NCBI RefSeq assembly: GCF_021290385.1
Contig: NZ_CP089928.1
Span: 496,001 to 560,000 of the forward strand
Source of the DNA: Microbulbifer sp. YPW16
Lineage (GTDB): Bacteria > Pseudomonadota > Gammaproteobacteria > Pseudomonadales > Cellvibrionaceae
Length of the DNA: 64,000 nt
Reading direction: 5' to 3'
A program made the position numbers and the translations under genes. Positions 53,185 through 64,000 of this stretch are shown here, piece by piece. The stretch's first letter is position 1. Every line of letters begins with the position of its first letter. Below the pieces are notes generated by a model. It was not told where the DNA came from, made no database searches, and saw nothing but the letters and a program-made list of their open reading frames with translations.

Positions 53185-53403
53185 CAGCATGCGCACAGCG
53201 CTTTCGTGCCGGACATAAACTGGTTAGAATCAATCAACGCTACCAAGCGACACTAATCGAAGGCGTCGTGTCGAGGACCCCATACCGGTTTCAGCTTGCG
53301 GGCAAAAAGCCATAGTAGTGACTCCCTGGTCCCCCCAAATCACCGCAACCTCCTCACGCACACCTGCGAACGACGCCAACTATCAATTGACCTGAAACGC
53401 CTG

Positions 53404-54192
53404 ATGCCCGCTACACCTGACACAGATGACCTCCATCACCGGATCTATGTTTCCGTTGTCTCCCACGGCCACGAAAAACATATTATCGAGACGCTGCAAC
53501 CCGCTTCCTGGATAGCAGAGACCACAAGCGTAGTGCCACTGGTGCTCTCAAACCTGCCCAGCCCGCAATTACGCCAGTACTGCCAGGAATCAGGCATTCT
53601 CTATCTCGAAAACAGCGAGCCATTGGGCTTCGGGGCAAACAACAACAAGGCTTTCCGACATCTCGAGTCGAAGTTCGGTGTGAGCGACCAGGATTTTTTC
53701 TTTACCATCAACCCGGATATCCAAACCAGTGGTCGTGATATAGAGGCAATGGCCAGGAAGATGGAGCAGGAAGGGCTTAAAATTGCCGCCCCCAACCTGG
53801 TGAACCAGGAGAATGTCCCTGAAGACAATATCCGGAGCTACCCAAGTCTTATTGACTGTATTCTAAGGTTCACGCTTGGAAGTGAGAGATCCTGCGTAAG
53901 TAAAGCAGAAATACAAAGTACCCGGGAAACAGACTGGGCCGCCGGTGCTTTCCTCGGTTTCTCCGTCAACGCCTACAGAGCGGTCAACGGTTTCGATGAG
54001 AGGTACTTCATGTACTATGAAGACGCTGATATATGCCGGAGAGCCCGCCAACAAGGCATCGGCACATACTACCTGCCAACCATCTCCGCCACCCATCTTG
54101 CCGCCCGGGACAGCCGAAAACTGTTTTCCAGGCAGCTGATCTGGCATGTCACAAGTGCACTCCGGTTTACCCTCACGCGATCATCGAGCTGA
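53404..54192 (+). CDS. Glycosyltransferase family 2
   Basis: A 262-residue GT-A enzyme of the rhamnosyltransferase-like branch. Motifs: IYVSVVSHGHEKHIIET at the start, the DXD-type FTINPDI (NPD), and GFDERYFMYYEDADICRRAR, the acceptor/catalytic ED segment. The sugar is not predictable. The start ATG 53404 is a choice; an in-frame upstream frame from 53296 lacks homology-like sequence. It is first of two plus-strand genes of the cluster. The next gene starts 7 bp on. Confidence 0.88.
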   Translation: MPATPDTDDLHHRIYVSVVSHGHEKHIIETLQPASWIAETTSVVPLVLSNLPSPQLRQYCQESGILYLENSEPLGFGANNNKAFRHLESKFGVSDQDFFFTINPDIQTSGRDIEAMARKMEQEGLKIAAPNLVNQENVPEDNIRSYPSLIDCILRFTLGSERSCVSKAEIQSTRETDWAAGAFLGFSVNAYRAVNGFDERYFMYYEDADICRRARQQGIGTYYLPTISATHLAARDSRKLFSRQLIWHVTSALRFTLTRSSS

Positions 54193-54199
54193 CCACCAG

Positions 54200-55153
54200 A
54201 TGACCGACCTGATTCTACATATTGGAAGGCACAAAACCGGGACAACAGCAATTCAACGCTTCCTGGCAGCCAATCGCGACTGGCTGGCCCAACGCGGCTA
54301 TATGTACCCCAAAACAGGTGTTCGGGGATACGGACATCACCGTATCGCTGAATCCATGCCCAGGCGCAGGATCGGCATAATTAATGCCCCTGAGGCGCGA
54401 GATCTCGCATCCAGCGTCCTGGAAGAAATCGGTGAAAATTCCGGGCTTACCCCGATACTGTCCTCAGAAGCCTTCCAGCAATGTCCACCCTGGATTGTCA
54501 GGCACTACCTCCGCGCACAGCAATGCAAGGTGATTGTCTACTTACGCAATCACCTTTCGTACTTGCCTTCAGCTTACACGCAGAAGGTCCATGCGACTGG
54601 TTACTCAGGCACACTCCAGGATTTTTACCAGGAATTCTACAAGCAAACTGACTACTTGAAGTTCACCAGGGGCTGGGAGCGAACATTTCCCGGGGGAGTA
54701 GACCTCAGGATCTACGACAAACCCCAACTGTACCGGGAAAATATTGTGCTGGACTTCATAAGGCATGCACTGGATATCCAGGAGGAAGAGGTATCACCCG
54801 AGAGGCTTCCCTCCGGCGATGCCAACCCCTCCCTGAATGAAAAGGTTGTCCAATTCAAAAGACATATCAACGAGACTGGGGAAGTGGCCCGCTATTCAGG
54901 AAAGGGCCTTTATCGAGCATTACCAAAGCTCAACCAGCTCTTTCCCGCACCAAAAGTGATGGTCACACCAGAGCTCGCGAGCAGGTTAATCGAACGCAAC
55001 GCCAGACGTGACGGCATCGTGGCCAGGACCTACTTAGGCAAAGAGACCCTTTTCGATTATGACGGGGAACCGACAAGGAAGGAACAGCAGATTAGCGGGA
55101 ATGACATTGCGGCAATGAGGGAAAAGCTCGAAGAGATACTTTCCCCCAGTTGA
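54200..55153 (+). CDS. PAPS-dependent sulfotransferase-like protein (1)
   Basis: A 317-residue protein with an N-terminal 5'-phosphosulfate-binding loop LHIGRHKTGTTAIQ (residues 6-19, K12 the catalytic-type lysine) and a later 3'-phosphate-binding-like region with YLRNHLSYLPSAY, the R and S expected to touch PAPS. It would move sulfate from PAPS to an acceptor sugar in the cytoplasm. The ATG at 54200 follows the GT2 stop by 7 bp. The acceptor is unknown. Confidence 0.82.
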   Translation: MTDLILHIGRHKTGTTAIQRFLAANRDWLAQRGYMYPKTGVRGYGHHRIAESMPRRRIGIINAPEARDLASSVLEEIGENSGLTPILSSEAFQQCPPWIVRHYLRAQQCKVIVYLRNHLSYLPSAYTQKVHATGYSGTLQDFYQEFYKQTDYLKFTRGWERTFPGGVDLRIYDKPQLYRENIVLDFIRHALDIQEEEVSPERLPSGDANPSLNEKVVQFKRHINETGEVARYSGKGLYRALPKLNQLFPAPKVMVTPELASRLIERNARRDGIVARTYLGKETLFDYDGEPTRKEQQISGNDIAAMREKLEEILSPS

Positions 55154-55167
55154 GCAGCCGAAGCCGC

Positions 55168-56421
55168 TCACCCCTTGAAGTGTACGCGAGCGTTGAACCC
55201 CATGGGGCTGTGAATCACGAACGGAACAGTGGAAACATAGCCGTTCAGTTTTAGGCAAGTCCCTGAACGCCGACGGATATCCCTGATAATCTTGCTCACA
55301 TGCCGTTCATCCCCATCGGCGACCGCATCAATCCCATAAGAGTAAATCTGCCAGTCGTAGTGTTTGACAGCCCCATTACGAGCAAGCTCATCGAGTATTT
55401 TGATAGCCCCAGCCCGGGAGACAAGGTATCCGTCTGCCCCAATTGCACGGACATCAGACGCCACATCATCATAAGCCTGATTGATATTGACCAGCTTCAT
55501 TGACTGACCAGGAACCCTCCACCAACCTGGAACAGACCGATCGTTGAGGAAACAAATATCAGCGTCTTTTGGTAAAGCGTCCAGCAGGCCTTGAAAAGAA
55601 AAGTGGAATGCAGGCAGGCCATCATCCTCGACTATCATCCCATAGTCGTGCCCTGATTCCACTATCACCTCAAGAGCCCTGACCTGAGATGACCAGCAGC
55701 CGACGGAATTTGGGGGTAACTCAGCCTTGAAGAGTGTCTGCTGCATCAGCCGGGGAACAGCACTACCAAGAACTCCGGCCTGTCGCCGGACATCACAGCC
55801 CACCTTGCGATACAACTGCTCGAGCCCCATAAAGCGATGGACGTCTCGATCCAGGTTAATACAGTGAACGGGTATGGATGCGTTCGAGGATTCAAATCGA
55901 TTACTTCGGGTCAGGATGCTGAACTTACTGGATATTTCGCTGTAGACGTCTTCTCGGGCATGCCGCTTTACTTCGGCAAGCCGGCTGCCCAGATGATCCC
56001 AGTCGTGGTACGTCATTAACAGAGTTGAGGCAACCGTCGCTGTCCAGTTGCACTTGATATTGATACTCCGTGCGTATTCGATTGCCGCGTCGACATCACC
56101 ACGTCGAAACATTACCTGGGATCGATTGATGGGGAGCACTGCAACGTCTCCAGCATCCTCATACTTGAAAGCAATGGAGTATGCAGAATCTATATCGCCG
56201 CGACTTATCAGGAAGGCGCAGACGAGGTTCAGGACCTTTCCGAAGGCCTGCCCACCACTTTTTAGAGCACTATTACAAGCGTCAATAAAGAAACTCAAGC
56301 GCTCACTGTTCGAAGAGAACCTGTTTCCGATCTCTTCAACCAATGCCCTTGGACTGTCAGAATCACATACACGATCAACAAAGTCAGTTGCGGGGCACTT
56401 CTTGAAAAAACTTAAAGGCAT
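55168..56421 (-). CDS. Glycosyltransferase family 25 protein with N-terminal helical domain
   Basis: A 417-residue protein. The C-terminal half is GT25, as in LPS beta-galactosyltransferases: HCINLDRDVHRF, SQVRALEVIVESGHDYGMIV followed by EDDG (DXD-type). The first ~160 residues (GDIDSAYSIAFKYEDAGD, GDVDAAIEYARSINI) form helix pairs like TPR repeats, which is unusual. The stop lies 15 bp from the convergent sulfotransferase stop. It begins the long minus-strand block. Confidence 0.85.
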   Translation of the reverse strand: MPLSFFKKCPATDFVDRVCDSDSPRALVEEIGNRFSSNSERLSFFIDACNSALKSGGQAFGKVLNLVCAFLISRGDIDSAYSIAFKYEDAGDVAVLPINRSQVMFRRGDVDAAIEYARSINIKCNWTATVASTLLMTYHDWDHLGSRLAEVKRHAREDVYSEISSKFSILTRSNRFESSNASIPVHCINLDRDVHRFMGLEQLYRKVGCDVRRQAGVLGSAVPRLMQQTLFKAELPPNSVGCWSSQVRALEVIVESGHDYGMIVEDDGLPAFHFSFQGLLDALPKDADICFLNDRSVPGWWRVPGQSMKLVNINQAYDDVASDVRAIGADGYLVSRAGAIKILDELARNGAVKHYDWQIYSYGIDAVADGDERHVSKIIRDIRRRSGTCLKLNGYVSTVPFVIHSPMGFNARVHFKG

Positions 56422-56480
56422 CTATCGATCACCTGAGTACGGTTAAAGGCCGCAATCATCTATGGTTGTCCTGCAGAGAT

Positions 56481-57695
56481 TCAGGCTATTTGTGCCTCAG
56501 GCACATCCTGATCGGCCTCGAGCCTTTGCTGATTGGTCCAGTAGGATACACAGGGTATCTTCGACCGGTCACAACGGTCTTCGTATTTCCTGGCCACGTC
56601 ATTTACCTCAGACAACAACCCTTCTGAGAGCAGGATGGGCTCCAAGCCCATTTCAAGGAAGCAGTCATTTGCCACGAACAGGTCGTTCTCTGCCGCTTCG
56701 TTCCTGGGATTGCTCATATAGTTGATCTCGACACCTGATAACTCCGCCACCAGCCTCGCAAGATCCCTTACTTTGTGGGTTTCCGTCATCTGGTTGAAAA
56801 TCCGCACACGCTCATTGGATGCAGGCTCATTCTCCACTGCAAGACGAATGCAGCGAACGGTATCCCGGATATGAATAAATGCTCTTGTCTGGCCGCCAGT
56901 CCCATGCACAGTGAGCGGGAACCCAACGGCCGCCTGAACAACAAAACGGTTGAGGACGGTGCCGTAATCACCGTCGTAATCAAATCGATTCATAAGTCGA
57001 TCATCGCGGCTGGTTTCTTCCGTGTTGGTACCCCAGACGATGCCCTGGTGCAGGTCGGTAATTCGAAGTTTGTCATTTTTGTTATAGTAGGCAAAAAATA
57101 GCTGGTCCTGAGTCTTGGTCATGTGGTAAATACTGCCGGGGTTCACCGGATACAGGATTTCCTGCTCTACCGTTTCGCCGGCATCGGTCTGAATCCGGAC
57201 ATTGAGATAGCCCTCAGGAATCTTCATTCCGGCGCTGCCATATCCGTAAACACCCATAGTCCCCAGGTGGACGAGATGGATATCAAGGCCGCTCTCGACT
57301 ATCGCAGCCAGGACATTATGTGTAGCGTTCAGGTTGTTATTTACCGTGTAAATCTTATGCTTCGCTGATTTCATGGAATAAGGCGCCGCACGCTGCTCAG
57401 CAAAGTGAATGATGGTCGTCGGCTCAAATTCCAGGACCAGGTCCAGGAAGTCACGGTACTCACTGGCAACATCAATATTGAGGAAGCGGATCTCCCGGCC
57501 ACTGACTTCCCTCCAGGCCGTCAGTCTCTCCTCGACAGGAGAGATAGGCGTCAGGGAGGTGATACCCAACTCATTATCGATATTTCTTCGTGACAGGTTA
57601 TCAACGATAAGAACTTCATGCCCGTGCTCAGACAAATGCAGCGCAGTTGGCCAGCCACAAAAACCGTCACCACCGAGAACTAATACCTTTTTCAT
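56481..57695 (-). CDS. sqdB: UDP-sulfoquinovose synthase (SQD1/SqdB family)
   Basis: This enzyme adds sulfite to UDP-glucose to make UDP-sulfoquinovose, the head-group donor of the sulfolipid SQDG and some glycans. The 404-residue SDR protein starts KVLVLGGDGFCGWPTALHLS, close to plant SQD1. Further SQD1-like motifs are FAEQRAAPYSM, HLGTMGVYG with T146 (T145 in SQD1), Y190-x3-K194, NRFDYDGDYGTVLNRFVVQA and GGQTRAFIHIRDTV. It is cytoplasmic. Conservation is strong enough by eye to prefer this over UDP-glucose epimerase. No sulfolipid synthase (SqdX-like) is seen in the window. Confidence 0.87.
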   Translation of the reverse strand: MKKVLVLGGDGFCGWPTALHLSEHGHEVLIVDNLSRRNIDNELGITSLTPISPVEERLTAWREVSGREIRFLNIDVASEYRDFLDLVLEFEPTTIIHFAEQRAAPYSMKSAKHKIYTVNNNLNATHNVLAAIVESGLDIHLVHLGTMGVYGYGSAGMKIPEGYLNVRIQTDAGETVEQEILYPVNPGSIYHMTKTQDQLFFAYYNKNDKLRITDLHQGIVWGTNTEETSRDDRLMNRFDYDGDYGTVLNRFVVQAAVGFPLTVHGTGGQTRAFIHIRDTVRCIRLAVENEPASNERVRIFNQMTETHKVRDLARLVAELSGVEINYMSNPRNEAAENDLFVANDCFLEMGLEPILLSEGLLSEVNDVARKYEDRCDRSKIPCVSYWTNQQRLEADQDVPEAQIA

Positions 57696-58304
57696 ACCGA
57701 TCCCTACTCAATTTTTTCCAACTGCTAAAGGGGGACGTAACCTAATGAAATAATGGCTAACGCCAGTGCGGCCATTTTTCAAAAAGGGCAGCACCCAAGC
57801 TATTATTCACGTAAGCAGCCCAGAAGCAGATATCAACAATGCCAACAACAGGACAATCCTAGTCCCTTGCTGTTACATTAATATGTAGAAACCATTGCAG
57901 AAATATTTTCAGCGGAAACGAAAACAATATCTCAGGTAATAAACCGGAGGGAGCGGAATAAGCAGTGGGGGATTGATAGCCGTATAGACCGTATGGGACC
58001 ACCTATCGAACAAAGCTAAAGACTGGTTAACCAGGGAAAGGCGACTACTCCCCAAGTCAATAAGAGAGCAGCAAGCAAGAAATCGTCCAGGAGCCCACGA
58101 AGCTGGCCATCGCCACTGCTACGCTCAAAACCGTGGGCTAACACCTGATCAAAGGTATATCCTGGTAAATCCCCCGTCAGCCGAAGCAAGAGGCCTGCTT
58201 AACTACTGGAGAATCGGGTAAATTGGCACCTGAAACGCCAAAACACGAGAGTTTCGTGATCCCCACGCCTCAGGATCAAGCCAGGTGAAATGAGATAGTC
58301 CGGC
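57696..58304. other. 609-bp interval with no intact gene
   Basis: AT-richer than flanking DNA. It holds only a short protein-like frame at 58016-58198 (listed separately). Nothing else supportable was seen; the region upstream of the synthase start should carry its promoter. Confidence 0.5.
58016..58198 (-). pseudogene. Possible remnant of a membrane-protein gene
   Basis: A 60-codon frame without ATG and ending in TAG. It reads as a coherent hydrophobic C-terminus: LLLRLTGDLPGYTFDQVLAH near its start and LLDDFLLAALLLTWGVVAF near its end, with an in-frame stop just upstream of the first codon. Composition is protein-like rather than random. The missing upstream part suggests a decayed gene. 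The family is not recognised. Confidence 0.3.
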
Positions 58305-58994
58305 CTACTTATCCCAGACTACATCACGATAGATTGAGTTTTCCTTCTGGAACCTGGACCAGTGCTGACTGGTGCCTCGAGTATTTGGCAAGCCCAGATG
58401 CACACCCTGGCGCCTGAAAAAGGCCCGCTTTGTAAATACAGACACCTGGGAGACAAACTCTTCCTGTATTTTGTATCCTGGCTCGTCCCCGTAAAGCGAA
58501 TCACATAGCAATGAACGCCAAACACCGGGTCCAGTTACGTTAAACACATTATTCGGCCTGCCTGGATCGGTCAGGTTGGCGTACATCCTGTCAACAAGTT
58601 TCCCAAGCACAGGATGACCTTTTGGAGCGTAGAAAACACCATTAACGATAGTACCATCATGCCATTCACAGACATGAAACTTCTCCGGCTCGTTCTTGAT
58701 AAACGGGGGAATACCTTTCAAGCCAAACTTGGAATCAATATAGCAGCCGCCCAGGGAGTACACGGCTAGCACGCGGAAAATATCAGACTTCATGGCCCAG
58801 GGAATACAGTTTTCGTAGGCCCTGAACCAGGCATCGCCATATTCACGCTTGATGAACCTGGCGGCCATTTTTGCATCGAACCCAAGGAAGTCTAAATCAT
58901 CCTTTTCGTTATAAAATTCTTCATATGAATCGACCTTCCGCTTGAAGAAGCCGACAATTCGACGCAAATCATGTTGAAAAACTATTACATTCAT
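58305..58994 (-). CDS. GT32/capsular-type glycosyltransferase-like protein
   Basis: A 229-residue protein. The segment CIPWAMKSDIFRVLAVYSLG then GCYIDSKFG fits the OCH1/GT32 DXD region (R-x-SD-xx-R...GG-x-YxD), and GPGVWRSLL fits the later substrate segment. The usual second aspartate of DXD is replaced: the sequence is D-S-K. The start ATG 58994 is the first with the family-like lead MNVIVFQHDL; the frame upstream to 59201 has poor protein character. Either a divergent active enzyme or a weakened one. Confidence 0.7.
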   Translation of the reverse strand: MNVIVFQHDLRRIVGFFKRKVDSYEEFYNEKDDLDFLGFDAKMAARFIKREYGDAWFRAYENCIPWAMKSDIFRVLAVYSLGGCYIDSKFGLKGIPPFIKNEPEKFHVCEWHDGTIVNGVFYAPKGHPVLGKLVDRMYANLTDPGRPNNVFNVTGPGVWRSLLCDSLYGDEPGYKIQEEFVSQVSVFTKRAFFRRQGVHLGLPNTRGTSQHWSRFQKENSIYRDVVWDK

Positions 58995-59304
58995 CACTAA
59001 CAACCGTGAGTATGGCCCTTCAAAAAGACCCGATTCCACAGAATGCCGCACGAATCTGCGGCATTCCAGTACAATAACTATAGATCTCCGCCTGGCCACG
59101 CCAGACAACAGGTTTAAGCTCAGGGTTTTCCCTGCAATCCAGAAGCCCAGGGACTCCCTGTAACGCACAACGACAGACCGGCATCCTATACCTATCCACA
59201 ATCATGCGTTGGGGATTGTTACGGGATTATGAAGTGAAAACGCCAGTACTCAGTCGCACCGACCGCAGCCAAGAACTTGACTCTATCTATGCCTTCCCTT
59301 GCCT
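58995..59304. other. 310-bp interval, no supportable gene
   Basis: It lies between the GT32-like start and the next sulfotransferase stop. A minus-strand frame continues from the GT32-like gene, but with an arginine- and cysteine-rich, non-homologous look. No terminator or promoter was confidently seen. Confidence 0.4.
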
Positions 59305-60300
59305 TCAGGTTTGCAGCAACTGCAAGGCCGCCTGACTATTCAAGTCAAGGAACTCACCGATCCGGACTACATCCTGGGCTGCAGTTATCGCCGGCTTGCG
59401 CTCAAAGAGGGCTGCGACGCTAGTAGAGTCCCAGCCCAGGTAACGGTTAAGTTGGCGCTGGAACCGGAAACGTCTGAACCATCCCGATAGCAGACCGGAG
59501 AATACCTCGAACCCCGGGGACTCGGTGAAAACCGGACCCTGCCCATCCAGCATCCCAGCGTCGGCGACAAACTGCCTGAGGCTACCCAGACTCTCTTTGT
59601 CGACCCGCATCCCCTCTTTATTCGCCCACCTGGAGATCTCTGCCAACACAGCACCACCACCAGGGTTGGACGTTTTCTTTACAGCGGGAATCTTATCGTG
59701 CGGGATATCAATCAGTGACAGAAGGTCCTGAACAACATCCAGCCCGCGGTAGTAGTGGCGTATACAGAGCTTTCCATTAAATATCGAAGTTAGCTGTGAA
59801 CAGATGTTCAAGTAGCTCAGGGCACCGCCGCGCCAGACCGGGTAGAATTCATCAAACTTCAGGTGATTCCCCCTTCTCAGGCAAAACTCACGGTAATAGG
59901 AGCGAACGTAATCATAATAGTTACGAAGATACAGGACGCCGCAGACCTCGACACCCTGCGCCCTGAGCATATCACAGAGGGTTAGCAACCCCTTGTGCTC
60001 ACTTGGACGTGACCACGCCTCGCAGGACAGGACTGACACTGGAGCCGGACTGGCCAGGATCTCATGAACCAGGTTTGTATGGTACTTATCGAGATTACGC
60101 TTCCTGCCATCACCGTAAACCAGACAGGCATGGCGTATACCTACGTCCGGCTCTGAGTAATATAGCCCGGCACCGGGGTACAGCACCCCCTCTTCCAGCA
60201 ATTCCTGCGAACGCTGGTAGAGAAAGTTCTGGATACTGGAGGTCCCAGTCTTGAAAGTCCCTACGTGAATAAAGACTTTTTTTGGCTTCCCCTCGGCCAT
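59305..60300 (-). CDS. PAPS-dependent sulfotransferase-like protein (2)
   Basis: A 331-residue protein with the 5'-phosphosulfate loop FIHVGTFKTGTSSIQNF (residues 10-26, K17) and GVLYLRNYYDYVRSYYREF as the 3'-phosphate region. The same fold as the protein at 54200-55153, but a clearly different sequence, so a different acceptor is likely. The start ATG 60300 is preferred over a TTG at 60303. It begins 4 bp after the cytidylyltransferase stop region, in one operon. Confidence 0.83.
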   Translation of the reverse strand: MAEGKPKKVFIHVGTFKTGTSSIQNFLYQRSQELLEEGVLYPGAGLYYSEPDVGIRHACLVYGDGRKRNLDKYHTNLVHEILASPAPVSVLSCEAWSRPSEHKGLLTLCDMLRAQGVEVCGVLYLRNYYDYVRSYYREFCLRRGNHLKFDEFYPVWRGGALSYLNICSQLTSIFNGKLCIRHYYRGLDVVQDLLSLIDIPHDKIPAVKKTSNPGGGAVLAEISRWANKEGMRVDKESLGSLRQFVADAGMLDGQGPVFTESPGFEVFSGLLSGWFRRFRFQRQLNRYLGWDSTSVAALFERKPAITAAQDVVRIGEFLDLNSQAALQLLQT

Positions 60301-60303
60301 CAA

Positions 60304-60762
60304 CTACAACCTTTGTGCGAGCGATATCAGGTGATCACAGACGTTCAGCAGCTCCTGCTTCTTTTCCTGCTTAACTGAAGAAACAAGCTCCTTGATCTCT
60401 GTGGTAGAGATATCCTGGGTCCTGGGAAGATAGATCACCTCAACAATATCTGCCAGGTCATCAAACTTTCCCGCCCAATCATCGCCCATTGCGAATATGG
60501 CAGCTTGCTCCCTGAGGATATCCTCGCGTTTCTGCTCCCAGTTCGATTCCGGGAACACGCTATCCACATAACGGCAGGCCTCCAGCATCTCTTTCCGCTG
60601 GGCATAGCTCATGATGGTACGCTTGCCCTTCAGCTCATTAAACTGATCGGTAGAGCAGCCAACGACCAGGCGATCACCGAGCTTGGCCAACCTCTTCAGT
60701 AGCCGCACATGCCCGACATGGAACAGGTCGAAAGTCCCATAAGTTATAACGGTTCTATTCAT
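60304..60762 (-). CDS. tagD: Glycerol-3-phosphate cytidylyltransferase (TagD-like)
   Basis: A 152-residue nucleotidyltransferase making CDP-glycerol (or a like CDP-alditol) from CTP. The HxGH motif is H15-V-G-H18 in YGTFDLFHVGHVRLLKRL. PESNWEQKREDI, MGDDWAGKFD and LPRTQDISTTEIK match Bacillus TagD nearly residue by residue. The start ATG 60762 has GGAGAA seven bases upstream and overlaps the upstream licD-like stop. CDP-glycerol is the donor used to put glycerol phosphate on polymers; in Gram-negatives this occurs in some capsules. Confidence 0.93.
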   Translation of the reverse strand: MNRTVITYGTFDLFHVGHVRLLKRLAKLGDRLVVGCSTDQFNELKGKRTIMSYAQRKEMLEACRYVDSVFPESNWEQKREDILREQAAIFAMGDDWAGKFDDLADIVEVIYLPRTQDISTTEIKELVSSVKQEKKQELLNVCDHLISLAQRL

Positions 60763-60788
60763 AACAGTATTCTCCGGATCGCCCTGAC

Positions 60789-62282
60789 TCACTGTTTGCC
60801 GTGCTCATTCGCACGAAAGTGCTTGTCAGGCGTGCGCCAGGTCGCGCCATATCGAGCTGCCAGGAATTCCTCAATTTTGGCCGGGACAGAATAAAGGCGG
60901 CCAAAGAAGGGCCTCTCTTCCACCGGCAGCAAAATCGACGCAGGCACGCTGGAGTAATTAACATTGCGCATCGGCAGGAAGATCTCACTCGCCTCGCTAT
61001 AGGCCAGGAAAATATCAACATGTACCTTGTGCACCCTGGAGAAAACCTGGACGAAAGGAAGGTTTTCCCTGCGATTATTGAAGTTAACCTGGGCACGAAA
61101 CCCTGCGGAACCCAATACCGTAACGATATCACGGGCTACTTTCTCAAGGTCACCACACCCCTGACCAGGAATACACAGGAGGTCAATGTCGTCATCATGG
61201 GCAATAAAATCATTATCGCGATAAAAGCCCAAAAGGGTGCCGTAGCACAAGACAATTGGCCAATTGCAATCAGCCAGGGCTTCTGCAACCGCATCAATCG
61301 TATCAAGTAGTGTTTCCCGCGGATAACTGGACAGCGGCCGGGCAAACGTATGCGCTGCGGCAATCAACGGGTGGCCTAACTTTTGCTCGCCTATGACCCT
61401 GGCATCGGCCTCAATTACCTCCAGATGCTCCCGGGAGAGGGCACGACTGGCGATCGAGTAAATCTTGAATGCATCCCTGCGGTAGCCGTGGCACAGCAAC
61501 ATGTCGACCACAAAGCGGGAGGTAAGGAAGCCCATTTCTGAATCGTAGAAACAGAAAACATTCGCGAGCAGATACGCGAGATCCGAGCCCAGAAATTCTA
61601 CGGAATCGGGACAGTCCGAGGGAAACTGGAACTCTGAAAAGAAGGAGTCCAATACCGAGCGCAACTGCCCTGGCCGGTTAACGCCTGCCCGCAGTCCAGA
61701 AACCAGTTTACTGACGCTCGATGGACAGCCTGCAGTCTCCTCAATGCTCCCAATGTTCGCATCCAGCCATGCAAGACGTGAATTCAGGTCTGAGCCATCA
61801 TAGAAGCAGCGCCAGCCTTCCCCACATTTGGCGTTGATCCGTAAGCTCCTGGCTCTTTCCCAGAGACCATCTTTCCTGTTAACCACCCTCAGGGCCTGCA
61901 GAACGATGGGGGATGGGAAGCGAATAACCAGATAAGGCTGTTCCTCCATACGGGTCGAGAAGAAGGCGCTTGAACCGTCAGCAACCGCGACAATATCAAA
62001 AGCCTTATCACCCCGGGCTACAGAGCTCTGCTCAAAAGCCAGGTTGTCATAATCCTGCAACGCCAGCCACTTACCATCCACTTTAAACAGGATATTCGCC
62101 AGGTGCAGGTGATTGACGCCTGCCAGGTCTATCTTGAGCTCAGTAATCCGGTCGCCAATGGGCACTTCAAATGGCATCGACTCGACACCCAACAGCGGGG
62201 GGCCGATATAGGCTTTGCCCCAGGGGTATACATGGCCGCCCTTCCCTTTTCCCAGTACTGAACGAACTAAATCAATAATCAT
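60789..62282 (-). CDS. LicD-family phosphotransferase with N-terminal extension
   Basis: A 497-residue protein. The C-terminal LicD/fukutin-type nucleotidyltransferase domain (about residues 335-480) has the signature CYGTLLGFYRDNDFIAHDDD, then IDLL, with D363-D365 and D367 as metal ligands. Such enzymes move phosphocholine or glycerol/ribitol phosphate to glycans. The first ~160 residues look like a beta-sandwich carbohydrate-binding (discoidin-like) region. Its neighbour makes CDP-glycerol, so glycerol phosphate is the most likely donor group. It ends within the overlap with the tagD start. Confidence 0.85.
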   Translation of the reverse strand: MIIDLVRSVLGKGKGGHVYPWGKAYIGPPLLGVESMPFEVPIGDRITELKIDLAGVNHLHLANILFKVDGKWLALQDYDNLAFEQSSVARGDKAFDIVAVADGSSAFFSTRMEEQPYLVIRFPSPIVLQALRVVNRKDGLWERARSLRINAKCGEGWRCFYDGSDLNSRLAWLDANIGSIEETAGCPSSVSKLVSGLRAGVNRPGQLRSVLDSFFSEFQFPSDCPDSVEFLGSDLAYLLANVFCFYDSEMGFLTSRFVVDMLLCHGYRRDAFKIYSIASRALSREHLEVIEADARVIGEQKLGHPLIAAAHTFARPLSSYPRETLLDTIDAVAEALADCNWPIVLCYGTLLGFYRDNDFIAHDDDIDLLCIPGQGCGDLEKVARDIVTVLGSAGFRAQVNFNNRRENLPFVQVFSRVHKVHVDIFLAYSEASEIFLPMRNVNYSSVPASILLPVEERPFFGRLYSVPAKIEEFLAARYGATWRTPDKHFRANEHGKQ

Positions 62283-62461
62283 AAAAATTCCTGGTTCCCT
62301 GCCCGGGAGCCACGTACAACATCAACACCGAGCCCGCACCAACCAGTAAGCGGCTTGCCGTAACCGGTGTGCACAGCAGCTGTTGGAACCCCTCCTTATA
62401 CAGCACCGGATGCGTCAGGCTGACGACTGGCTGGATATATCAGGGAGCTCTCTTTACGAAT

Positions 62462-63289
62462 CTAGGCCCTTTTCTTATCTTCACTGAGCGCTTCACACCT
62501 GGCACGATAATCTGCCAACAGGGCATCAAAATTATCTGTTTTGTCGACCTTTTTCTCCAGGGAGTCTTTTGCCATCCGGTACAGGGCAAGATCAAAACTA
62601 TTATTTTCAACCAGCAAGTCAAAAACCTCGCCTAGCTCATTGGCGATATAGTTAATATTGCGCTGCTCGCCTTTTACTGCCCGGCCTGTATTCTGGCGCA
62701 AATAACTCAGGTCAATATTCGGGAAGTGCTTGCCCAGTTCCTGCTCGATCACTGTCATTGAGCGATCGAAGTCCTCCACCAGACCGACCAGGGAACCATC
62801 CCCGAATCTTTTCGCAGCACTGGACAGATGGTTGAGACCGACATTTCTTGCATTAGAAACCTTAGGCCCAGAGGCGAGGTACGCAACCTGGTAGTCGCGA
62901 ATCGTACGACCCACCTTAGGTTCCATCCGCCACTGGACGTAATCCTTAAAGCTGTATTTCTTGGCCGCCTTGGCACCGGGTGTTTCGGAATTCTGCTTCC
63001 GTTCGAAGCTGTACACTGAAAGCGCACGCAGCAGGGGGTGCCTCAGGAAGAAAACCGGGAGGGACTTGATACCTTCCAGACCCGATGTGTTACACATATG
63101 ATGGGAGGAGAGAGCCTGAATGCCTGGGTTCTCTTCAAGGAACTCCTGCAGGTACTCGACACCCCTACTTCTCATAGGCATATCGTCGCGATGGTCACAG
63201 AATGCATCACCGAAATAGCGCCGCAAGGCCCAGTCAAAGGTTGTCCCCGCGTTCTTGAAAATATGCCCATGGGTGATCACTAAACGCAT
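62462..63289 (-). CDS. Sulfotransferase-family protein (3)
   Basis: A 275-residue protein with a variant 5'-phosphosulfate loop at the start: ITHGHIFKNAGTTFDWALRR (residues 5-24, K12), as in PF03567-type carbohydrate sulfotransferases that have H-x-PK-GGT. The PVFFLRHPLLRALSVYSFER segment fits the PAPS 3'-phosphate motif (R-P...S). The protein is unrelated in detail to the other two sulfotransferases. The ATG at 63289 is adopted. Acceptor unknown. Confidence 0.8.
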   Translation of the reverse strand: MRLVITHGHIFKNAGTTFDWALRRYFGDAFCDHRDDMPMRSRGVEYLQEFLEENPGIQALSSHHMCNTSGLEGIKSLPVFFLRHPLLRALSVYSFERKQNSETPGAKAAKKYSFKDYVQWRMEPKVGRTIRDYQVAYLASGPKVSNARNVGLNHLSSAAKRFGDGSLVGLVEDFDRSMTVIEQELGKHFPNIDLSYLRQNTGRAVKGEQRNINYIANELGEVFDLLVENNSFDLALYRMAKDSLEKKVDKTDNFDALLADYRARCEALSEDKKRA

Positions 63290-63412
63290 AAAACCACAAT
63301 CCGTTAAATTAACAGCTGCCTGCTATCAAACAGGCCTTCATATCACTCGATATCAACCGCCGGGCTCCCGGTGGACGCTCAGCGAACCTACCGGTTGAAA
63401 TTATTTTCAGAG

Positions 63413-64000
63413 TTAAGCGGTTTCCGCTATACCCTGCTCTTCGGCCATCTGGGACTCGTGCATCTCAATGATGCGCCCCACTACTTTGAGGCCCTCGCGC
63501 AATCGCCCACTCCTGCAATGCCGCTCCAGTTCAGCGAATAGAGTGCACAATCGAATGTGTGACACCACGCCCCCTACGTCCAGGCCTTCCGCGACCGCCC
63601 CGCTTGAAATAAGACGCTCGGCCATCTCCTCCGGAGAGTCGGACGGCCACAAGGAGAAGCCCACCGGCTCAAGCTTCCAGTCGCCCAGTCCCAATAGGGA
63701 TACAGCCTCCCCATTACTAACGGCCAGCTGTTTGAGGACAGGATCGGGGGGAAGTAATTTGAGGGGCAAAGCTCGTACCCGCTCGGAAATCGCAGGAAGT
63801 GCTTCGAGGAAACTATCAAGAAGCTCCTTTTCGTCACTATCGGCCATCAGATACAGGCGTGACAACAGCGACAGGTTCAAGCGGTCCATCAACGTGGGAT
63901 GAACGGAGCAATATTCCTCCACCAGGGCCTGGTCGAAGGTCAGTGGCAGAAGCCGCCGGCGCAAGCCGATAATCGCATCCTGGTCCCGTGCAAAGGCCCA
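63413..64000 (-). CDS. Unknown protein, 5' end beyond the window
   Basis: The frame is open to base 64000; about 195 C-terminal residues are visible. They are helical and leucine/glutamate rich (MDRLNLSLLSRLYLMADSDE, LLDSFLEALPAISERVRALP), with no recognised motif. A TTG at 63964 could start it, but the frame continues unbroken to the edge (WAFARDQDAIIG precedes). It is part of the minus-strand glycan block; role unknown. Confidence 0.55.
   Translation of the reverse strand, partial: WAFARDQDAIIGLRRRLLPLTFDQALVEEYCSVHPTLMDRLNLSLLSRLYLMADSDEKELLDSFLEALPAISERVRALPLKLLPPDPVLKQLAVSNGEAVSLLGLGDWKLEPVGFSLWPSDSPEEMAERLISSGAVAEGLDVGGVVSHIRLCTLFAELERHCRSGRLREGLKVVGRIIEMHESQMAEEQGIAETA

Follow-up and report, generated by a model that had tools for sequence, protein, structure and literature searches.

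The right-hand end of a 64,000-nucleotide stretch of the Microbulbifer sp. YPW16 genome (bases 496,001-560,000 of a single 4,194,587-base contig; hereafter the window) carries part of a gene cluster that combines a TagD-like cytidylyltransferase, a LicD-type phosphotransferase, an SqdB-type homolog of UDP-sulfoquinovose synthases and several sulfotransferase-like proteins. On balance, we favor reading this cluster as an exchangeable, GC-poor Microbulbifer cell-surface glycan locus, which would build a short, unpolymerized oligosaccharide, lipid linked or of the lipooligosaccharide (LOS) type, loaded with acidic groups: phosphoglycerol, sulfate and, putatively, sulfoquinovose and pyruvate. Sulfate and phosphoglycerol are likely to decorate a surface glycan, and sulfoquinovose is a possible substituent of the same glycan; we infer that all of the acidic groups would sit on one molecule. 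A first-pass annotation had proposed a surface polysaccharide or lipopolysaccharide with three kinds of acidic substituent. Every gene that it named lies where it was placed, and the single locus, the sulfation and the phosphoglycerol hold up, with pyruvate a likely further group, whereas the type of polymer does not and sulfoquinovose stays a prediction.

In the proposed pathway, TagD would make cytidine diphosphate (CDP)-glycerol, from which LicD would transfer phosphoglycerol onto the glycan, and sulfotransferases using 3'-phosphoadenosine 5'-phosphosulfate (PAPS) would add sulfate esters; these are the well-supported steps. More conjecturally, SqdB would convert UDP-glucose and sulfite to UDP-sulfoquinovose, a GT25-family glycosyltransferase would attach this sugar to the glycan that carries the other groups, pyruvate would be added by a pyruvyltransferase encoded outside the window, and the product would not be polymerized.

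The predicted TagD-LicD phosphoglycerol module is well supported, as the first-pass annotation had it. The TagD-like glycerol-3-phosphate cytidylyltransferase (60304..60792, minus strand) is 60% identical over 124 residues to Bacillus subtilis TagD (1COZ), with which it shares the ISTT motif, and it scores 158.6 bits against TIGR01518, 7 bits short of the cut-off of 165.4. The LicD/fukutin-type phosphotransferase (60789..62282, minus strand) belongs to the LicD family by its match to PF04991 (31.9 bits; cut-off, 22.6) and by the Asp-rich DDDID motif in its alignment. Its N-terminal region is F5/8 type C-like, and an F5/8 type C domain is present in the LicD proteins of two relatives (G021 and G032). 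Against the PDB, the LicD family profile gives two weak matches, to FKRP (E 0.014) and, at the N terminus, to Sm-hPAF (E 0.029). The licD and tagD genes overlap by 4 bases, and the gene for one of the sulfotransferase-like proteins, ST_B, comes immediately after. TagD was found in 14 of 58 relatives, and all 14 places were inspected: at five of them (G000, G012, G021, G032 and G043) LicD lies next door, at two (G013 and G018) it is fused to TagD, and no LicD was found by seed or motif at the other seven. The two LicD-TagD fusions (L142:9123-10322 in G013 and L143:9657-10856 in G018) are about 400 residues long, have both domains above their cut-offs and are preceded by a fusion of WcbI to a sulfotransferase. 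Given the TagD next door, the donor for LicD is probably CDP-glycerol. CDP-glycerate was considered as an alternative and rejected, as CpgD is without homology to TagD (excerpted text of PMC12275187).

Sulfation by the locus is also a well-supported prediction. Three sulfotransferase-like proteins are indeed present in the window, although by profile they are weak: none of them reaches its Pfam gathering score, while homologs of two of the three do. ST_A (54146..55153, plus strand), whose true start is probably the ATG ahead of ...LILHIGRHKTGTT, scores 20.6 bits against Sulfotransfer_1 (cut-off, 22), has conserved G27, K30 and G32 in a six-row alignment and gives a profile match to the PDB sulfotransferase 3rnl (E 0.024). 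ST_B (59305..60303, minus strand) has no Pfam match and reads K-T-G-T in all three aligned rows; its homologs are the proteins fused to WcbI, which score 19.7 bits against Sulfotransfer_4 in G013, below the cut-off of 22.8, and 27.9 bits, above it, in G018. ST_C (62462..63289, minus strand) is of the Sulfotransfer_2 type (17.0 bits; cut-off, 22), with F-K-N-A-G invariant in eight of eight rows and a homolog (L117:9224-10042) that passes with 28.1 bits; its family profile has no PDB match at E 0.05. In all three alignments (six, three and eight rows) the 5' loop motif has an invariant Lys and Gly, and we take this conserved motif to be the 5' phosphosulfate-binding loop of PAPS sulfotransferases. 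Three more such proteins are encoded beyond the window, namely, a Sulfotransfer_3 protein above cut-off and two Sulfotransfer_2-like proteins that match nothing in Pfam or NCBIfam and were assigned by alignment to ST_C. A gene for adenosine 5'-phosphosulfate (APS) kinase, 27 kb past the window end, looks like a general neighbor in the genus, since the same surrounding open reading frames (ORFs) stand beside another cluster in G016.

The third acidic group depends on the SqdB-type homolog (56481..57695, minus strand), which is predicted to form UDP-sulfoquinovose. Judged by profile, alignment and tree, this enzyme belongs to the SqdB subfamily, of the Sinorhizobium meliloti type, and not to that of Arabidopsis SQD1 and Sulfolobus acidocaldarius Agl3. 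The first-pass annotation had called it an SQD1; the superfamily and the reaction-class fingerprint stand, while the SQD1 identity gives way to a member of the SqdB subfamily that misses the NF041015 cut-off and lies in what appears to be an accessory module. The protein scores 336.9 bits against UDPsulfquin_syn (NCBIfam NF041015) and is 45% identical to SQD1. Through the alignment to SQD1, the His, Arg, Thr, Met, Tyr148, Ser, Tyr, Thr and Lys tested in Agl3 are all kept, and so are the residues that we used for membership, His95, Arg101, Met145, Tyr182 and Lys186 of Agl3; the residues at which substitution inactivated Agl3 (PMC4388408) are conserved here. The [ST]MGxnYx3K fingerprint (PMC8987622) is present too. 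In a tree of 97 rows, SQD1 and one SQD1-type row separate with full support from 95 SqdB rows, the S. meliloti row being left out; the underlying 106-row alignment counts some genes twice, and 10 such rows were dropped for the tree. A homolog on S. meliloti pSymB shares 65% identity across 386 residues, carries the TMGVYGY and YHMTK motifs as well and is followed by a GT8 protein. We filed the window enzyme as SqdB-type because this motif and the homolog with GT8 next door recall the sqdBDC operon; that the S. meliloti homolog is itself SqdB we presume from its GT8 neighbor.

The motif that unites this subfamily also raises the question of whether its members make something else, for instance a 5,6-ene or a sugar nucleotide with a different substituent at position 6. 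The window protein reads TMGVYGYG where SQD1 reads TMGEYG, and the column opposite the Glu is non-Glu in 104 of 106 aligned rows, both Glu rows being the same gene fetched twice. We regard a different product as quite improbable, as the S. meliloti protein shares the motif together with a GT8 neighbor as in sqdBDC, and as PAPS-reductase-like neighbors point to sulfite. These neighbors were found among 81 SqdB loci, comprising the 80 top-ranked among 586 confirmed stretches in species genomes (66-74% identical, from many phyla) plus S. meliloti, in which neighbors were sought with single seed sequences, so that counts are lower bounds, and 14 of which had less than 10 kb of context. Ten of the 81 have a PAPS-reductase-like gene no more than 8 kb from SqdB (one seed; three of the ten are Moorena; the count has no background rate), and in 9 of those 10 the gap is below 0.8 kb or the two genes overlap on opposite strands. 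PAPS reductase makes sulfite. By the same search, at least 4 of the 81 loci have a sulfotransferase-like gene near SqdB, and none has TagD, LicD or GT25.

A second alternative is that SqdB serves the membrane lipid sulfoquinovosyl diacylglycerol (SQDG), its position in a glycan locus being incidental, with the GT25 protein or a GT4 protein elsewhere making the lipid. SqdB of Rhodobacter sphaeroides, from an sqdBDC operon, is required for SQDG (PMC11346425), a GT8 gene follows the S. meliloti homolog, and other Microbulbifer copies stand with GT8 or GT4. Set against this, the host encodes a single SqdB-like protein above 30 bits and no SqdD homolog at E 1e-8, and neither SqdD nor GT8 stands beside its SqdB as in an SQDG operon. 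Of 38 genomes, 4 have an SqdD homolog, which in three cases lies 1.6 kb from an SqdB copy (G029, G034 and G036 were not in the search), and the absence from the host is a weak argument against a membrane-lipid role. The fourth homolog (G010:C1:3219610-3220278) has three in-frame stops and lies far from both SqdB copies of G010. At least one SqdB copy over 250 bits is present in 9 of 37 Microbulbifer genomes, the host included, and the tree places these copies in four groups: copies with GT8, copies with GT4, copies in large glycosyltransferase clusters, and the window copy with L127 (one row per group was annotated with Pfam, the other rows being labeled by gene size and place). The window SqdB is separate from the copies linked to GT8 and GT4, although its pairing with L127 is weak (84/18, with the bootstrap unsettled). 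We consider the SQDG explanation unlikely. The L127 locus (G034) encodes the closest SqdB, at 80% identity, adjoining a PAPS reductase (Pfam) and a GT4-type protein, and is likely a second sulfoquinovose-glycan locus.

Next to sqdB lies the gene for a GT25-family glycosyltransferase with an N-terminal extension (55168..56421, minus strand). This protein has no Pfam match of its own; its relatives P0025 (33%) and P0026 (29%) carry PF01755, and the INLDRD and EDDG motifs are conserved in a six-row alignment. Its adjacency to SqdB makes it a candidate sulfoquinovosyltransferase. Only tentatively, then, do we suggest that SqdB and GT25 form a route by which a sulfolipid head-group pathway has been reused so that sulfoquinovose enters an oligosaccharide of the outer surface alongside phosphoglycerol, sulfate and pyruvate. 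GT25 homologs 60-64% identical occur on other contigs, including those of Microbulbifer; on two of these, from Microbulbifer sp. ARAS458-1 and a 55,234-base contig, LicD and the 583-residue protein described below are apparently present too.

Comparison with Microbulbifer flavimaris (G012) shows that these two genes form a separable unit. The blastn alignment of M. flavimaris to the window breaks off at 55,230 and resumes at 58,261 (76% and 86% identity), and the 3.0-kb stretch between (55230..58261), which holds SqdB and nearly all of GT25, is absent from the alignment. The 0.26-kb junction region contains a 30-residue match to the GT25 C terminus (50% identity; E 2e-7; tblastn against a 500-base piece), and this stump makes loss of at least GT25 from M. 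flavimaris probable. Insertion of the module by a mobile element was rejected: as a direct repeat, the 180-base flanks yielded nothing more than a 10-base match, and the stump favors loss. No convincing SqdB remnant was found in the junction (best E, 7.5).

Such a presence/absence difference, together with a GC content that is 40-56% between GT2a and GT4 but 62-65% in the flank on the left, could also mean that the cluster is a mosaic of neighbors from unrelated pathways assembled by exchange. That is very unlikely in our view, given that 18 cluster and flank genes keep the same order in M. flavimaris, that licD and tagD overlap here and are fused elsewhere, and that the GT25 stump suggests an earlier presence of the module. 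The genes ManC, NadK and RmlB are at 57-58% GC.

The cluster starts near window position 53,296 and ends at about genome position 577,550, some 17 kb beyond the window. The added part encodes the 583-residue membrane protein, a GT2-GT4 protein, the three further sulfotransferase-like proteins, a pyruvyltransferase (43.3 bits; cut-off, 25.3), GT4, ManC, NadK and RmlBDCA. The first-pass annotation had proposed looking past 64 kb for export genes. No flippase, polymerase, ligase or ATP-binding cassette (ABC) exporter family was matched among the cluster proteins, and this favors a short oligosaccharide, lipid linked or of the LOS type, over a capsule polymer. By crude hydropathy, hydrophobic spans occur in 2 of 25 cluster-region ORFs: one in a 92-residue plus-strand ORF that is probably no gene and six in the 583-residue protein.

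The C-terminal part of this 583-residue protein lies at the window end (63413..64000, minus strand; full gene, L005:10414-12165), and its roughly six hydrophobic segments are N-terminal. It occurs in 12 of 58 relatives (host included), all Microbulbifer, and in 5 of the 11 other genomes the stretch retrieved around it includes NadK, suggesting that the protein may be a core part of the locus. Its C-terminal domain faintly resembles a degenerate APH-type kinase. A true kinase or an ABC transporter was rejected, since Pfam is blank for the protein and APH reaches only E 0.03 in one of 15 aligned relatives; its PDB profile matches (best E, 0.025) were taken as chance. Our guess is a role as membrane anchor or in transport.

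A further alternative to the oligosaccharide is that the locus makes a long sulfated polymer, either capsule or exopolysaccharide, whose export genes lie elsewhere in the genome. A cluster of this kind makes a sulfated capsule in a marine Vibrio (PMC11641403), and genome-wide profile searches for Wza, Wzy_C and Polysacc_synt (ABC families were not searched genome-wide) found Wza and flippase genes in the host. A separate surface-polysaccharide cluster (G000:C1:2618000-2655999; L154 and L155), 2.1 Mb from this locus, contains Wza (2,640,526), a flippase (2,630,833), a sulfotransferase (2,629,346) and a weak Wzy-like match (2,625,114; 20.6 bits, cut-off 31.7) in an ORF without a Pfam match; a further flippase match lies at 3,562,083 and a Wzy/ligase protein at 1,937,813. 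With their own glycosyltransferase and sulfotransferase, the export genes at 2.62-2.64 Mb look like part of a separate cluster, and the capsule alternative is doubtful on these grounds.

Several observations weigh against the oligosaccharide reading or its sulfoquinovose branch. An unusual exporter can escape profile and hydropathy scans, and the LOS link is conjectural, no heptosyl or 3-deoxy-D-manno-oct-2-ulosonic acid (Kdo) enzyme having turned up in the family searches of the cluster. To our knowledge, no GT25 member transfers sulfoquinovose, and an SqdX-type (GT4) lipid route is conceivable. M. flavimaris retains the rest of the locus without SqdB, so sulfoquinovose would be at most accessory. 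Most other SqdB neighborhoods are poor in glycosyltransferases by seed search: among the 67 loci with at least 10 kb of context, 46 have no such gene within 8 kb of SqdB, and 3 have at least three (lower-bound counts). The window SqdB falls 238 bits short of the 575-bit equivalog cut-off of NF041015, and it does not keep Glu147 of Agl3, whose change to Ala left 12% activity (PMC4388408).

The pairing of SqdB and TagD is rare by location. Among the 58 relatives, only the host has the two within 3 kb, and in a class sample of 369 genomes (SqdB at E 1e-70, scored in up to 5 candidates per genome; TagD at E 1e-30) only the host has both together. SqdB-like proteins occur in 29 of the 369 and TagD in 14, with both in 1 against a chance expectation of about 1.1. 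Co-occurrence at the genome level is at chance, and only the co-location is unusual. G003 has SqdB and TagD 100 kb apart.

The remaining features of the cluster concern its other glycosyltransferases and its flank. The GT2-type glycosyltransferase GT2a (53296..54192, plus strand) narrowly exceeds the cut-offs of Glycos_transf_2 (PF00535; 23.7 against 23.3 bits) and of Glyco_transf_7C (24.3 bits); its start codon is uncertain, having been placed at 53404 before, and the gene is intact in M. flavimaris as a 266-residue homolog. A GT32-like glycosyltransferase with a DXD sugar-binding region (58305..59201, minus strand; start uncertain) falls just below the PF04488 cut-off (22.1 against 23 bits). 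The GT2, GT25 and GT32-like assignments of the first-pass annotation thus stand at different strengths, GT2 above cut-off, GT25 through its relatives and GT32-like just below. Left-flank genes read as BatB (a weak sub-cut-off match) and BatD (no match). Beyond the window, a 171-residue protein (L005:16093-17491) lacks the N-terminal part of its 242- to 262-residue relatives, with about 0.9 kb free of long ORFs upstream, and is perhaps a decayed gene; a domain common to it and the LicD N terminus was considered and rejected, there being no match between them.

Sulfoquinovose is a large organic sulfur pool, known mainly from SQDG membrane lipids and from N-glycans of archaea. Should SqdB supply the surface glycans of bacteria as well, those of the sea would be an overlooked source of this sugar and would offer new substrates to sulfoquinovose degraders. 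The LicD-TagD fusions, in turn, give a clean handle on whether bacterial LicD proteins use CDP-glycerol.

Among known systems, the closest to the window SqdB is sqdBDC, through the 65% identical S. meliloti protein and its shared motifs (the R. sphaeroides sequence lies outside the comparison). Those systems have SqdD, whereas here there is none and the partner is a GT25 protein inside a glycan locus. The window LicD shares its Asp-rich motif and the Pfam LicD domain with FKRP, to which its profile match is weak, and with Mf1, for which alignments suggest that such Asp residues are important (PMC11982090); unlike these fukutin-related users of CDP-alcohol donors, it probably takes CDP-glycerol and has the extra F5/8 type C-like region. 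Vibrio sp. KMM 8419 carries a locus for a sulfated capsule that is similar in its rhamnose genes, glycosyltransferases, several sulfotransferases and low GC, and differs in having an ABC exporter and PAPS genes; SqdB, TagD and LicD are unnamed in the excerpted account (PMC11641403). In Pseudoalteromonas polysaccharides, sulfate and glycerophosphate are both known from the genus, from separate references (PMC3210612, in excerpt), and sulfoquinovose has 0 occurrences in that review. Among the best-ranked literature matches we recognized no report of sulfoquinovose in a bacterial polysaccharide; against full novelty, a metagenome study, in its section on exopolysaccharide production, counts UDP-sulfoquinovose synthase as one of the sugar-nucleotide enzymes (PMC12555021). 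Agl3 and SQD1 are of the same superfamily as the window enzyme, which keeps most of their key residues (Agl3 being compared via the SQD1 alignment) and has Val-Tyr-Gly-Tyr in place of their Glu-Tyr, and it is Agl3 that provides the precedent for UDP-sulfoquinovose feeding a surface glycan (PMC4388408, PMC8987622).

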